Source: Jannaschia helgolandensis (GTDB taxonomy: Bacteria; Pseudomonadota; Alphaproteobacteria; Rhodobacterales; Rhodobacteraceae). From it: a DNA stretch of 64,000 nucleotides. Positions within the stretch are counted from its first letter, which is position 1. Each line of letters begins with the position of its first letter. The notes beneath the pieces are model-generated. The model had not been told where the DNA came from and ran no database searches. It worked only from the letters and a program-made list of their open reading frames with translations. Of the stretch, positions 35,037 through 39,818 are shown in pieces. The translations under genes were made by a program, and so were the position numbers. The stretch is from contig NZ_FNZQ01000004.1 in the NCBI RefSeq assembly GCF_900109285.1, forward strand, positions 1 through 64,000. The letters are read 5' to 3'.

Positions 35037-36026
35037 TCAGGCATTCACGTCGACGACCACACGTCCCCGAACCTGACCCTTCAGGATATCGGCGCCGGTT
35101 CGCGGCAGGTCCTCCAGCGTCTTCTCGACGATCATCGCCTCCAGCTTGTCCATCGGCAGCAGTTCGGCCAAACGATCCCAGGCCCGGACCCGGTTTTCAT
35201 ATGGCTGCAGCACGCTGTCGATGCCCAGAAGGTTAACACCCCGCAACAGGAACGGGATTACCGTTGCGGGCAACGATGCGCCGCCGGCCAGTCCAACTGC
35301 CGCAACACTGGCCCCATATTCCATCTGACCCAGCAGTCGCGCCAGCATCGCGCCACCGACCGCATCGACGCAGCCACCCCATGTCTCGCCCTCCAGCGGA
35401 CGCTTGACGGTTTCTGCCAGGTCTTCGCGCGGGACGATCTGCGTGGCCCCCAGCGAAGTCAGATATTCTGCCTGTTCAGGCCGTCCGGTGACGGCGGCAA
35501 CCTGCTTGCCCATCGCCGACAGCAGCGCGACCGCAACGGATCCGACACCACCTGCAGCCCCGGTGACCAGAACCGGCCCGGCCTTGATTCCGTGATCTTC
35601 CAGCACCTGGACCGCCAACATGGCGGTAAACCCCGCTGTGCCGACCGCCATCGCCTGCCGTGTGGTCAGCCCCTTGGGCAGTGGCACCAGCCAGTCGGCT
35701 CGGACGCGGGCCTTCTGGGAATAGCCGCCCCAATGCGCTTCGCCGACCCGCCAGCCGGTCAGGACGACCTTGTCGCCCGTTTTGTACCGGTCGTCAGACG
35801 ACGCCTCGACCGTGCCGGCGAAGTCGATGCCCGGCACATGCGGATAGTTGCGGACCAGCCCGCCGCCCGGCCCAATGCACAGCCCGTCCTTGTAGTTCAC
35901 CGTCGAATATTCGACTGCGACGGTAACCTCCGCCTCGGGCAGATCGGCCAGCGTCAGATCCTGAACCGAAGCCGAGGTCCCCTGATCTTCCTTTTCGACG
36001 ACCAGCGCCTTGAATGTCTCGCTCAT
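35037..36026 (-). CDS. acuI: acryloyl-CoA reductase AcuI
   Basis: A 329-residue zinc-independent medium-chain reductase. ATG 36026 overlaps the dmdA stop (ATGA) and has GAGAGG upstream. It has AVEYSTVNYKDGLCIGPGGG, VPGIDFAGTVE, and the NADPH motif GAAGGVGSVAVALL, all as in YhdH/AcuI. AcuI reduces toxic acryloyl-CoA to propionyl-CoA in DMSP breakdown. Its coupling to dmdA matches the dmdA-acuI pair of roseobacters. Confidence 0.93.
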   Translation of the reverse strand: MSETFKALVVEKEDQGTSASVQDLTLADLPEAEVTVAVEYSTVNYKDGLCIGPGGGLVRNYPHVPGIDFAGTVEASSDDRYKTGDKVVLTGWRVGEAHWGGYSQKARVRADWLVPLPKGLTTRQAMAVGTAGFTAMLAVQVLEDHGIKAGPVLVTGAAGGVGSVAVALLSAMGKQVAAVTGRPEQAEYLTSLGATQIVPREDLAETVKRPLEGETWGGCVDAVGGAMLARLLGQMEYGASVAAVGLAGGASLPATVIPFLLRGVNLLGIDSVLQPYENRVRAWDRLAELLPMDKLEAMIVEKTLEDLPRTGADILKGQVRGRVVVDVNA

Positions 36027-37102
36027 TTCCAGAACCTCTCCTGTATCGTGGCCGCAATCTTGCCGTCCTGCGTCACGCAGGTCAGCCGATCGCCCGGCTC
36101 CCAGTTCATTCCGACCATACCGATCGCCACACCGCATTGAAACTCGTCCGACCACGCCGCCGACCGGATGCGACCGGCCTGTACATCGCCGTCCATCAAC
36201 GGCCATTCCCGGTCGCAGACCGGCGGTGCGCCCTCCAACTCAACGGCTACGATCTTGCGCGACGCGACATGCGCCCGCAACGCCGCGCCCCCGATGCAAT
36301 CGAACCGCTGGACATAGCGCCCCAGCCCTGCCTCGAACGGGGTGTCGGCGCGGGTCATGTCGTTGCCATAGGACAGCATCCCGCCCTCGATCCGTTCGGG
36401 GCCACTGGGGCATCCGGCGCGGATATCGAATGGCTGCCCTTTGGACATCAGCGTGTCCCACAGCGGCGTCGCCAGCGCCGGATCGGTCACGTAGATCTCG
36501 AACCCGCCCTGTTTGGAATAGCCCGAGCGTGCGACCAGAACCTTGCCGTTCTCAAATGGCAGCCATTTGAAACCGAAGAACGGGATGTCCCGCGTGTCTT
36601 CGCCAAACACCTCGGCGGCCAGATCACCGGCCCACGGCCCCTGCACGGCCAGTATCTGAACGTCAGGTTCGGATACGGACACATCGTATCCGGCCCCCAT
36701 CGCCACCCCTTCGACCCAAAGCGCGAGGTCGCTGTCGGCCAGCGAAATCCACCATACCCCCGGAAACGGTTGCAACGCGACCGGGTCGTTGAGCATCCCG
36801 CCGTTCACATCGCAGATCGGGACATAGGCGCATTTGCCCGGTTTGATCCGGTCCAGATCGCGCGGGGTCAGGCGCTGCATCAGCTTGGTCGCGTCCGGCC
36901 CTTCGATGCGGATCTGACGCTCGCAGGCGACATCCCAGACCTGAACCGCAGACTTCAGGTGACGGCAATCCTCGGACGGGCTTTCGAACACGACGGGCAG
37001 CAAGGTCTTGTTATAGACCGTAAAGGCAGACACTCCCGCCGCCTCGACCGCATCGGTCCACCACGTTCGGCGCAGCCGGTTCGAGGGCGCGAGCGCCGTC
37101 AT
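36023..37102 (-). CDS. dmdA: dimethylsulfoniopropionate (DMSP) demethylase
   Basis: A 359-residue GcvT-fold, tetrahydrofolate-dependent enzyme close to the roughly 364 residues of roseobacter DmdA. It begins LAPSNRLRRTWWTDAVEAAG, with VQVWDVACERQIRIEGPDA, NGGMLNDPVALQPF, VARSGYSKQGGFEIYV, RAGCPSGPERIEGGMLSYGN and the end ERFWK. These follow roseobacter DmdA more closely than glycine-cleavage T protein. It moves a methyl group from DMSP to THF, forming methylmercaptopropionate. Its ATG overlaps the DinB stop and its stop overlaps the acuI start. Confidence 0.92.
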   Translation of the reverse strand: MTALAPSNRLRRTWWTDAVEAAGVSAFTVYNKTLLPVVFESPSEDCRHLKSAVQVWDVACERQIRIEGPDATKLMQRLTPRDLDRIKPGKCAYVPICDVNGGMLNDPVALQPFPGVWWISLADSDLALWVEGVAMGAGYDVSVSEPDVQILAVQGPWAGDLAAEVFGEDTRDIPFFGFKWLPFENGKVLVARSGYSKQGGFEIYVTDPALATPLWDTLMSKGQPFDIRAGCPSGPERIEGGMLSYGNDMTRADTPFEAGLGRYVQRFDCIGGAALRAHVASRKIVAVELEGAPPVCDREWPLMDGDVQAGRIRSAAWSDEFQCGVAIGMVGMNWEPGDRLTCVTQDGKIAATIQERFWK

Positions 37103-37599
37103 TGGACGTCACGCAGAAAGATCAGGTCGGTCGTCGGCGTCTCCCGCCCCATGGCCGTGAGCATGGCGTGGACCTGCCCGCGGTGGTGCGTTGCGTGGTT
37201 GAAAACATGCGTGACGACAAAATCGCGCCGCGCCGTCTGCGGCCCGAACAGCCCGGACACCCAGTCGAGGTCGCCGGACAGATCCGTTTCGGAAAGACCG
37301 CCCGCCCAGGCGGTCAATTCTGCATCGGCGCCGATGCGCATCGCGGCCCAGTCAACCCGCGTCGAGGCGATGTCACGCCCACCCGGCGTGGCTTCGGGTG
37401 CGGGACGGGACGCCAGTCGCGAAAGCCAGATCAGGTCCGCCCAGAGGATGTGGTTGAGCGTCGCGCCCAAGGACCCGAAAAACGCGCCCCGGTCCGCCCA
37501 CCACGCGGCCTCGTCCAGATCGGAGGTCAGGTCCGCATAGGCCACGTTCTGATGCGCCCCGAACCGCACCATCATGCGCACCCATTCCGGTGAGATCAT
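37099..37599 (-). CDS. DinB-family protein
   Basis: A 166-residue four-helix bundle protein of the DinB superfamily. ATG 37599 has GGAGA at a good distance; ATG 37611 (TGATG with the preceding stop) is the alternative. The metal ligands of the family are visible as His in TLNHILWAD (about residue 47) and HVFNHATHHRGQVHAML (about 130). DinB-type proteins include metal-dependent enzymes that use thiols such as bacillithiol or mycothiol, and EgtB. It overlaps dmdA, so a role in DMSP or thiol chemistry is possible but only inferred. Confidence 0.85.
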   Translation of the reverse strand: MISPEWVRMMVRFGAHQNVAYADLTSDLDEAAWWADRGAFFGSLGATLNHILWADLIWLSRLASRPAPEATPGGRDIASTRVDWAAMRIGADAELTAWAGGLSETDLSGDLDWVSGLFGPQTARRDFVVTHVFNHATHHRGQVHAMLTAMGRETPTTDLIFLRDVQ

Positions 37600-37610
37600 C
37601 GGTGTCTCCA

Positions 37611-38297
37611 TCACCGGGCGACCTCGGGTCCGGACCAGTCGATCTGACAGATTTCGGCGCTGCGCCCATCAAAGTCCCAGACACGGCCAAAGGCGCGCAC
37701 CCGGCCCTTGGTGGCGGTGGCGACGGTGATGTCGCTGCCCATCCAGTATTCGGTATTGGTGGCGACGATATCGCGCTCGGGGTCCTTGCCCTTGACCGGC
37801 ACCACCTCGCCCTGAATCTTCTTGCCGACCATCAGGCGACGGGACTTGCCTTCGGTCTCATAGGTGATCGCCGCGCGTTCGGCCCCGAGGAATTCGCTGA
37901 CCAGCAGCTTGAAAAGACCTGTCGTTCCCTTGGCCCGGCCCGAAAATATCTCGATCAGACCCAGATAGGCGGCCTGGGTTGCACGGTCGTCGATGAACGC
38001 CGCCGCCTTCCAGTTGCCGCGCGCCATAAGACCCGGAATTTCCAGGAGAAGCCCCACGTTCAGACCCGACAGATCGGTGTCACCGTAATGTCCGCTGTCG
38101 ATGCGGATGCCCGACCACGCCTGACAATAGCCTTCGGTCGGTGCGTGTTTGCCCAGAGACACGACGCAGGGACAGAAGACCGTGCAATTGCAGTTCAGGA
38201 TCAGCTCGCCCTTGATCGCCCATGGCGTCTGGGCGGCCCCTTGCGGGCGGGCTTGCGGGTGGCGGCTCGACAGGGCGGGCGCTGCGATCTTGGTCAT
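37611..38297 (-). CDS. DUF1326 domain protein
   Basis: A 228-residue cytoplasmic protein. ATG 38297 overlaps the DUF2182 stop and has CGGAGGAACG upstream. The DUF1326 hallmark is the Cys cluster ILNCNCTVFCPCVVSLG near residues 33-49 (CNC...CPC), which suggests metal or thiol binding; the rest resembles the DUF1326 body (GLNVGLLLEIPGLMARGNWK, AAFIDDRATQAAYLGLIEIF). Function is unknown. DUF1326 and DUF2182 genes often lie side by side in other genomes. Confidence 0.88.
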   Translation of the reverse strand: MTKIAAPALSSRHPQARPQGAAQTPWAIKGELILNCNCTVFCPCVVSLGKHAPTEGYCQAWSGIRIDSGHYGDTDLSGLNVGLLLEIPGLMARGNWKAAAFIDDRATQAAYLGLIEIFSGRAKGTTGLFKLLVSEFLGAERAAITYETEGKSRRLMVGKKIQGEVVPVKGKDPERDIVATNTEYWMGSDITVATATKGRVRAFGRVWDFDGRSAEICQIDWSGPEVAR

Positions 38298-39004
38298 ATC
38301 GTTCCTCCGATCAGATAGCCCGCGCCGGTCAGACAGGCGAGGCCGATTGCGCGCGGCACCCAAGCCCCGCGTGTTAATTTTTCCAATACCATCAACAAGG
38401 TGGCCAATGCCATGAAGCCCAGATTCATCGCGCCGCCGACCAACCCGAGCGTCATCAGCGCCCAGCAGCAGCCCAGACAGGTCGCGCCCAGACGCAGGCC
38501 CATGTGCAGCGGTCCTTCGTCCCAATGATTCATGAAAAACGTCAGCGGCTGGCGACATTTCGACAGGCAGGCGTCCTTGACGGCCGAAAACTGGTAGGCC
38601 CCCGCAAGGGTCAATAGCGCAGCGGCGAGCCAGACCCCTTCCAGCACACCGGCGCGCGACAGGACGAGTTGCGCCACGGCGGCAACACCCGAAAAACCCA
38701 CCCAGACAACGAGATAGCCCGCGACCAGCCGCCCCCCGCCGCCCGTGCCCTGGGAGTCGGCGATGTCGTCATGCGTGGCGAAGGCGGGCAAAGCGGTCGG
38801 CAACATCATCGCCGCCGACATGATCAGCCACATCGCGAAAGCCCCGGCCACCCCCACGGCATCGACCGGCAGGCGAAACATGTCGTGAAGGGCCATCGCC
38901 CACCCGTTATCGACGCCGATCAGGAAAACAGCGGCCCATGCCAGCAATAGCCCGGCATAAAGCGCCAGCCAGTGCGGTGCGGTCATGCGTGACAGATGCC
39001 TCAT
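38294..39004 (-). CDS. DUF2182 predicted metal-binding membrane protein
   Basis: A 236-residue protein with about six helices. ATG 39004 follows GGGAGGGCGGTTG; the TTG at 39007 is less likely. It contains KDACLSKCRQPLTFFM and LRLGATCLGCCWALMTLGLV, the paired Cys motifs typical of the family (COG5486-type). It is the first gene of the operon DUF2182-DUF1326-DinB-dmdA-acuI, divergent from a GntR gene. Biochemical function unknown. Confidence 0.88.
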   Translation of the reverse strand: MRHLSRMTAPHWLALYAGLLLAWAAVFLIGVDNGWAMALHDMFRLPVDAVGVAGAFAMWLIMSAAMMLPTALPAFATHDDIADSQGTGGGGRLVAGYLVVWVGFSGVAAVAQLVLSRAGVLEGVWLAAALLTLAGAYQFSAVKDACLSKCRQPLTFFMNHWDEGPLHMGLRLGATCLGCCWALMTLGLVGGAMNLGFMALATLLMVLEKLTRGAWVPRAIGLACLTGAGYLIGGTI

Positions 39005-39051: not shown

Positions 39052-39077
39052 AAATGTCAGACATTTAAAAGTCAGAC
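39052..39077. promoter_or_regulatory. duplicated GntR-type operator
   Basis: AAATGTCAGACATTT (39052-39066) is a perfect 15-bp palindrome. The core GTCAGAC recurs at 39071-39077, exactly 15 bases downstream and thus about one and a half helix turns away. The T-GT-N3-AC-A shape fits FadR-subfamily operators. It lies between the DMSP operon and the divergent GntR gene and probably controls both. Confidence 0.75.
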
Positions 39078-39092
39078 AATTGGATTCTGCCG

Positions 39093-39818
39093 GTGCCGAC
39101 GAAGACCCCTCCCGCGAAATCGATTTCGCTGTCCATCTCGGACCGGCTGGCCGCGCGGATCGCGGATGGCGACCTGATGGCGGGCGATCGCCTTCCCTCC
39201 GAAGCGGAGCTTGCGCTGCAATTCGACTGTTCCCGCGCAACGGTGCGCGAGGCGTTGAAGCGGCTGGCCGCCAAGAACCTGATCCGCACCGCGCGCGGCC
39301 ATTCCGGCGGCGCTTTCGTGGCCGACCTGACCTATGCCGCGGCACTGGATTCGCATGTCGCGACATCCATGCTGTTGCTGTCGATGAATGCCGTCGATTT
39401 CCAGACCGCCGCCGAGGCGCGGTTCGCCCTGGAACGCGCCTGCGTCGATCTGGCGGTCGCGCAGCACGACCGCGCCGACCTGCGCGCCCTGAAAGATGCG
39501 ATCAACCGTCTGGCCAGCCGCTGCACCGACGAGGCGTTCTGCGCCGCCGACGTCGCGTTTCACCGGGCGCTGGTCGATGCGGGGCACAACCCGGTGCTGT
39601 CGTATCAACTGGCGGGCGCGGTCGAGGCGATGCAGCCGCTGATGAACATGATCACCTATGCCGACCGCGACCGCGAGACGATCATCCGCTTGTATCGCCG
39701 TATCGCCGGGGCCCTGCAGGCACGGGATGCGGGCGAAGTCAGGCATGTTCTGGACGAGCTGGAGGCCCTGATGATCGCTTTGTTTCAACGGGGACAGGCG
39801 CGGCGGGCGCGGCGCTAG
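39093..39818 (+). CDS. FadR-subfamily GntR regulator, probable regulator of the DMSP operon
   Basis: A 241-residue protein. GTG 39093 is the earliest sensible start and gives the complete winged helix: SISDRLAARIADGDLMAGDRLPSE, CSRATVREALKRLAAKNLI and GHSGGAFVADL. The FCD domain follows (AEARFALERACVDLAV, VAFHRALVDAGHNPVL, YRRIAGALQARDAGEV). It is divergent from the DUF2182-acuI operon with a duplicated palindrome in between. Acryloyl-CoA or DMSP metabolites are possible ligands by analogy; this is an inference. Confidence 0.85.
   Translation: MPTKTPPAKSISLSISDRLAARIADGDLMAGDRLPSEAELALQFDCSRATVREALKRLAAKNLIRTARGHSGGAFVADLTYAAALDSHVATSMLLLSMNAVDFQTAAEARFALERACVDLAVAQHDRADLRALKDAINRLASRCTDEAFCAADVAFHRALVDAGHNPVLSYQLAGAVEAMQPLMNMITYADRDRETIIRLYRRIAGALQARDAGEVRHVLDELEALMIALFQRGQARRARR

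Follow-up and report, generated by a model that had tools for sequence, protein, structure and literature searches.

DmdA opens the demethylation route, which directs the sulfur of the algal compound dimethylsulfoniopropionate (DMSP) to methanethiol instead of the climate-active gas dimethyl sulfide. In Ruegeria pomeroyi, a dmdA-acuI operon has been described (excerpts of PMC3338564 and PMC5395565). In the PpoB1-PpoB2 tyrosinase operon of Marinomonas mediterranea, PpoB2, which belongs to COG5486, is reported to pass copper to a tyrosinase (excerpt of PMC2855505), and the mtoX-SCO1-mauG cluster carries a gene for the SCO1 copper chaperone near that of the Cu-dependent methanethiol oxidase MtoX (excerpt of PMC5739008). 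Here, we analyzed a five-gene dmdA-acuI operon of Jannaschia helgolandensis that begins with genes for a DUF2182 and a DUF1326 protein and lies in a window, i.e. the whole stretch of DNA analyzed, of 64,000 nucleotides (contig NZ_FNZQ01000004.1, positions 1 to 64,000).

Like the R. pomeroyi operon, this locus has acuI directly after dmdA; unlike that operon as the excerpts describe it, it has three genes in front of dmdA, with the DUF2182-DUF1326 pair first. The DUF2182 product matches the Pfam family that bears the name of the M. mediterranea protein PpoB2, but there is no tyrosinase here, and DUF2182 has a DUF1326 partner in a DMSP operon instead. As in the mtoX-SCO1-mauG cluster, a gene of a copper chaperone family is placed with a methanethiol-related pathway, but the family is a different one and the genome has no match to SBP56, the MtoX family. 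The operon is a variant of the known dmdA-acuI operon, and we found no description of the pair at its head in the open-licence literature searched.

All five genes lie on the minus strand. The first encodes the DUF2182 (PpoB2-type) membrane protein (38294..39004; PF09948, 174.3 bits, cut-off 28.7, 3.4e-51) and is followed by those for the DUF1326 protein, with five invariant cysteines (37611..38297; PF07040, 172.5 bits, cut-off 25, 1.2e-50), and a DinB-family protein with a histidine triad (37099..37614; PF05163, 67 bits, cut-off 23, 2.5e-18). The DMSP demethylase gene dmdA (36023..37102) passed the equivalog cut-off of NF009133 (462 bits, cut-off 410), and the best solved structure for its product was 3tfh (278 bits). 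The last gene, acuI (35037..36026), encodes a member of the acrylyl-CoA reductase family that passed the subfamily cut-off of TIGR02823 (438.8 bits, cut-off 297.25) and scored below the AcuI equivalog NF051456 (418.1 bits, cut-off 440). The five genes overlap as originally claimed, since both the open reading frames and the raw sequence gave a 4-base overlap at every junction; DinB has an alternative start at an ATG three bases further in. This arrangement would make the five genes a single transcription unit, presumably read as one transcript, that serves DMSP demethylation and the acryloyl-CoA pathway. Elsewhere in the genome, there was no match to a PF16867-family DMSP lyase and, using one query without a positive control, none to DmdD at 1e-40.

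Recurrence of the DUF2182-DUF1326 pair

DUF2182, DUF1326, dmdA and DinB were searched for in 198 Rhodobacteraceae genomes, a subset of a larger group with one genome per genus. DUF2182 was matched in 110 of these genomes, DUF1326 in 106, and dmdA over its cut-off in 84. Adjacent genes in the order DUF2182-then-DUF1326 were present in 95 genomes, comprising 71 of the 84 with dmdA versus 24 of the 114 without it (Fisher p 1e-19, a value that is overstated because genera are not independent). Clustering of the hits gave 32 loci with the order DUF2182-DUF1326-DinB-dmdA and 28 with DUF2182-DUF1326-dmdA, plus two of the latter type with a split DUF2182 match, and the order DUF2182-DUF1326-dmdA-DinB was found in two loci. 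The phylogenetic profile proposed beforehand therefore revealed an order that recurs in many genera and is not restricted to one strain.

The neighborhoods of 93 DUF2182-DUF1326 loci from this survey contained dmdA downstream in 63 cases, acuI (at least 150 bits) in 76, and a gene from one acyl-CoA synthetase cluster in eight, with at least one of the three near the pair in 86 loci when acuI was counted on either strand. Using a looser acuI cluster raised the acuI count to 78 by adding L027 and L039, and the corresponding count for any pathway gene, which includes a hydratase cluster, to 88. None of dmdA, acuI and the synthetase was found by the strict count in L014, L021, L026, L027, L034, L039 and L040; the contig runs out in L021 and L040, whereas the gene of acuI's looser cluster is present in L027 and L039. 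DinB was present in 46 of the 93 loci and dmdA absent from 30, which is at odds with the original prediction of one welded five-gene unit. The tight unit is the DUF2182-DUF1326 pair, and DinB is optional.

Blast clusters within 9 kb of the pair also included a BCCT-type gene in 24 of the 93 loci and, in five, an enoyl-CoA hydratase from the cluster that contains DmdD. These cluster labels derive from few scans, namely three members for the synthetase (PRK08162), L012 for the BCCT-type gene, and L118 (1.6e-150 to 4izb) and L028 (PRK08150) for the hydratase. We take 4izb to be R. pomeroyi DmdD, and the solved relatives of the synthetase cluster include 6ihk, presumably DmdB. In L013, L016, L037, L057, L063, L067, L081 and others, acuI is followed by a small gene of one cluster, which by eye resembles that of a universal stress protein, and by a BCCT-type transporter gene, also where dmdA is missing.

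A second genome set was examined through the best 80 of 564 DUF1326 relatives; it overlaps the family survey, and the counts are not additive. DUF2182 adjoined DUF1326 in all 80, together with dmdA in 57, acuI in 70 and DinB in 30, in genera including Jannaschia, Roseovarius, Tritonibacter, Yoonia, Ruegeria, Seohaeicola and Labrenzia. The complete order DUF2182-DUF1326-DinB-dmdA-acuI is present, for example, in Roseovarius mucosus DSM 17069 (L207). The nearest DUF1326 proteins came from Jannaschia species, with 89-95% identity in six of seven and 83% in J. aquimarina. Outside the family, a class-wide dmdA search of 385 genomes (a few of them from the family; about 1.5 kb read on each side) returned 30 places over the cut-off in other families. 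Among the 27 that were read, the pair was directly upstream of dmdA in two (L305 and L323), an apparent DUF1326 remnant abutted dmdA in another alphaproteobacterial family (L314, about 1212-1492), and the pair was not seen beside dmdA in the other 24. In a sample of 200 genomes from the phylum, DUF1326 occurred in 21, five of them from the family, and DUF2182 adjoined it at 27 of 28 loci. One genome (G205) had an acyl-CoA synthetase gene after a DUF2182-DUF1326 pair.

The opposite order, DUF1326-then-DUF2182, was present in 20 of the 198 genomes, and its matched domains lay some 200-520 bases apart. No dmdA was found near the reverse-ordered pair in the 20 loci read, of 22 listed, and acuI was near it only in L133, 3.6 kb off and on the other strand. 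Since these 20 loci lack dmdA, the DMSP link belongs to the DUF2182-DUF1326 order and not to the two families in general. No shared partner was identified beside reverse-ordered pairs among ten neighboring proteins scanned, two of which were DUF2182 itself. An acuI-like gene after the reverse-ordered pair of L151 was discarded, as it belonged to the loose blast cluster only and the acuI seeds gave no match at 150 bits.

Adjacency of this kind could also be inherited chromosomal synteny without a common function, and the photolyase, CFA synthase, nudix and cysK genes downstream are likewise syntenic in many genera. However, the pair and dmdA stay together where those genes were not seen (L060, L070, L076, L096, L100, L101, L105 and L112, and L220 and L230 of Labrenzia) and in the two loci from other families. 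Together with the 4-base overlaps in this operon and a palindrome common to dmdA operons that lack the pair (see below), these observations make synteny alone a very unlikely explanation.

A divergent GntR gene and a common palindrome

Upstream of DUF2182, a gene for a GntR/FCD regulator is encoded divergently on the plus strand (39093..39818; PF00392 and PF07729). The gap between the two genes contains two adjacent operator-like palindromes (39052..39081), of which the first (39052-39066) is exact and the second (39067-39081) has one mismatch; the region carries AAATGTCAGACATTT, adjoined by AAAAGTCAGACAATT. A strict 13-mer of the AAATGTCWGACATTT-type palindrome was present in 99 of 110 GntR-DUF2182 intergenic regions (the family survey contributed 57 and the genomes of DUF1326 relatives 53, partly the same genomes). 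In total, 121 sites fell within 17,059 intergenic bases, whereas the remaining 3,186,430 bases of the fetched loci had seven. Six of these seven were upstream of DinB-dmdA (three), dmdA (two) or DUF2182 (one), and the seventh was not, while a reversed-pattern control gave no sites in the GntR-DUF2182 regions and none elsewhere.

The divergent GntR gene stood beside DUF2182 in 56 of the 93 pair loci, comprising 50 of the 63 with dmdA and six of the 30 without. Most loci that combine dmdA with a divergent GntR gene thus have a palindromic site, common to the whole set, directly upstream of DUF2182. The palindrome was also found at operons with dmdA but without the pair (L050, L051, L116 and L122), and two dmdA-acuI loci without the pair, L116 and L121, likewise have a divergent GntR gene. 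Taken together, these sequence patterns strongly suggest co-regulation through a common palindrome. The divergent GntR protein would bind this palindrome, and control of the operon is most likely exerted by it through the site at 39052-39081.

Candidate metal handling at the operon head

The original prediction named metal- or thiol-type motifs in the first three gene products, and we found them as claimed: CNCx3CPC in DUF1326, CLSKC and CLGCC in DUF2182, and H55, H140 and H144 in DinB. DUF2182 belongs to the Pfam family PF09948, which is named PpoB2, copper chaperone. Across 117 DUF2182 sequences, MWx2Mx2AMMxP, KxxCx3C and CxxCC were conserved in 96-99%, and in 58 close sequences these motifs were invariant except for an alanine, as were further Met, Glu and Lys residues. 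The structural model was helical (pLDDT 88.8), with hydrophobic segments, and DUF2182 is accordingly predicted to be an integral membrane protein with conserved soft-metal ligand residues. A fold search with this model gave no Foldseek match at E 0.001, and its best Z score, 5.9 to transporters, was uninformative. PMC2855505 was the sole treatment of the DUF2182 family found in the open-licence literature searched, and PpoB2 is also mentioned in PMC8523701.

DUF1326 has no signal peptide by eye, passes the PF07040 cut-off, and carries CxCx3CPC. Residues C36, C38, C42, P43, C44 and C58 were invariant in 23 diverse members, and W61, D103, W185 and W221 were conserved in closer sets. No PDB sequence matched it at E up to 1, and no paper on DUF1326 was found in the open-licence literature. 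Its predicted fold (pLDDT 81, pTM 0.80) was closest to acetoacetate decarboxylase (Foldseek E 4e-4, with five hits below 0.001; Z up to 9.9, with 161-162 residues aligned at an rmsd of 4.7-4.9), and the next fold had Z 7.2. The predicted resemblance is to the beta-cone fold of the acetoacetate decarboxylase superfamily (3bgt, 4jmd and 5upb), but DUF1326 shares only 5-12% identity with these proteins and differs from them in its five-cysteine motif and in having no invariant lysine among the 23 members (K97 reached at least 90% in 69 close ones).

This fold raises the alternative that DUF1326 is itself a pathway enzyme, an acetoacetate decarboxylase-like lyase or hydratase whose cysteine-bound metal is loaded by DUF2182. 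The fold match, the invariant cysteines with the additional conserved residues of the closer sets, and the adjoining DUF2182 at nearly every locus of the phylum sample are consistent with such a role. Acetoacetate decarboxylases act through a Schiff-base lysine, however, and the missing invariant lysine makes this chemistry unlikely for DUF1326; in addition, the model is less sure over the stretch with the cysteine motif (blocks of ten at pLDDT 69-77). We regard it as unlikely that DUF1326 is an enzyme acting on a small product, whether methanethiol, some aldehyde or a C3 compound of acrylate type.

Instead, we tentatively favor, at somewhat less than an even chance, a copper-type pair that is co-expressed with DMSP demethylation and keeps copper supplied or buffered as methanethiol is released. 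The first two genes would encode a soft-metal handling pair, in which DUF2182 is a Met/Cys-rich membrane protein and DUF1326 its soluble partner, an acetoacetate-decarboxylase-like barrel with a five-cysteine site. DUF2182 may give copper(I) to DUF1326 or take it from DUF1326, and the pair would supply or buffer copper when the pathway sets free reactive acryloyl-CoA species and methanethiol, which as a copper-binding thiol would perturb copper. An optional accessory role as a metal-dependent enzyme would fall to DinB. Within this proposal, both the order of the genes and its recurrence are firm, copper handling is our best guess from family, ligands and context, and methanethiol as the reason for copper handling is our inference. 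No known copper oxidase gene was detected among the five operon genes with Pfam or NCBIfam.

Several observations weigh against this proposal. Reverse-ordered pairs away from dmdA mean that the two families are also used outside DMSP metabolism, and in genus g214, from another family, the same pair type is followed by an NADPH:quinone reductase gene (two such reductases scanned by NCBIfam, a third by Pfam). In Rhodobacteraceae, 30 of the 93 pair loci are without dmdA, and 20 of these 30 have acuI downstream. DUF1326 identity hardly tracks that of dmdA (correlation 0.16) or acuI (0.05 and 0.03). Exact copies of the palindrome WWWTGTCWGACAWWW stand at 12 places of the genome, i.e. 11 besides the operon's, and the genomic neighbors examined were mixed, with some sites not promoter-like but inside genes or between convergent ones. 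SBP56 (PF05694) had no matches in this genome, as opposed to a Sulfolobus control genome, and among genomes with dmdA the pair was not associated with mtoX, which occurred in 42 of the 71 that carry the pair and in 6 of the 13 that lack it (p 0.54).

Some of these points bear on a further alternative, in which the pair and DinB would act in acrylate/electrophile stress or in metal-thiol stress generally, with acuI as their partner gene and dmdA as a later addition. The excess of acuI over dmdA downstream of the pair, the MDR reductase of g214, and the protection from acrylate that acuI affords (excerpt of PMC3338564) would all fit. However, in six loci (L070, L076, L087, L096, L101 and L105) the pair comes with dmdA and the synthetase cluster and acuI was not detected, such that the pair's link is not only to acuI, and the divergent GntR gene goes with dmdA. 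We judge this alternative to be quite unlikely.

The copper-supply proposal retains the leading idea of the original prediction, that the unit supplies a cofactor or handles a sulfur intermediate of DMSP breakdown, without its "welded" framing, given the recurrence in many genera, the palindrome common with dmdA-type operons, and the copper-chaperone family. The recurrence at the operon head suggests that metal handling has been overlooked as a step of this major sulfur pathway of the ocean. If a metal-handling module is present in most Rhodobacteraceae demethylators, copper status could help decide DMSP use, and the little-characterized DUF2182 and DUF1326 families would gain a defined physiological setting.

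Methanethiol oxidase, DinB and gene divergence

Because MtoX is Cu-dependent (PMC5739008, in excerpt), the pair could also metallate this SBP56 enzyme, and Rhodobacteraceae MtoX is reported to yield sulfane sulfur (excerpt of PMC10936201). L044 carries an apparent mtoX-ferredoxin-DUF2182 operon, whose divergent DUF2182 gene overlaps the ferredoxin gene, and in L055 the GntR gene divergent from DUF2182-DUF1326-DinB-dmdA-acuI has mtoX next after it. L285 has the palindrome upstream of mtoX. These three loci, which also favor the copper-type reading above, are single cases picked from SBP56 hits. A DUF2182-type protein was present in three of 23 mtoX loci scanned with the profile (L044, L055 and L293), each of which was read because DUF2182 was already known there. 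The missing SBP56 match in this genome and the 29 of 71 genomes with dmdA and the pair that have no mtoX, with no association between the two, argue against metallation of MtoX, which we consider extremely improbable; as the sole purpose of the pair, we reject it for this genome.

In all, mtoX was not counted in 36 of the 84 genomes with dmdA (weak SBP56 matches in G023, G031 and G075 were treated as absent), and 29 of these 36 have the pair. A DUF1326 metallated by DUF2182 that acts as an SBP56-independent copper-thiolate enzyme or carrier for DMSP-derived methanethiol would, if real, help explain how these 36 genomes cope with methanethiol. Counting against it, the pair is equally common in genomes with both dmdA and mtoX (42 of 48), and we view such a role as very improbable.

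The DinB family has three metal-binding histidines, and H55, H140 and H144 were kept in 95-100% of 77 operon DinB proteins. For a thiol-transferase role of DinB, membership in the family and this conserved triad are all the evidence found.

Sequence identities of DUF2182 and DUF1326 were correlated across loci (0.63 for 100 loci, 0.74 for 46), with values of 0.50 and 0.32 for dmdA and acuI. Compared with five Jannaschia genomes, the DUF1326 of the window was 89-94% and its AcuI 84-89% identical, whereas identity to any of the other loci in the comparison, those of Jannaschia among them, did not exceed 69% for its DmdA and 46% for its DinB. A value of 82% for the dmdA of J. pohangensis came from one HSP and did not hold in the cleaned comparison. 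Given this divergence, dmdA and DinB seem to have been exchanged, or to be fast-evolving, between a stable DUF2182-DUF1326 pair and acuI. The window broke eight of 134 conserved columns in dmdA and three of 36 in DinB, each the third most of 46 loci, so some relaxation of both is possible even with most conserved positions intact.

When one mismatch was allowed, the genome contained 20 palindrome places per strand, compared with one for the reversed control. One genomic palindrome lies between an enoyl-CoA hydratase gene and, by eye, a PaaI-type thioesterase gene, and others lie around genes that resemble those of sarcosine oxidase and superoxide dismutase. In 16 of the 23 mtoX loci (L280-L293, L299 and L044), a ferredoxin-like gene follows mtoX, with the L044 copy matching Fer2 in Pfam, and a gene for a CoA-binding-domain protein comes next in L287 and L291. 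In L042 (6073-7549), a divergent DUF2182 gene lies directly downstream of a gene whose product by eye resembles a DUF899 thioredoxin-type protein. In the window, the divergent GntR/FCD gene is followed by a solute-binding protein gene and then a DUF4345 gene.

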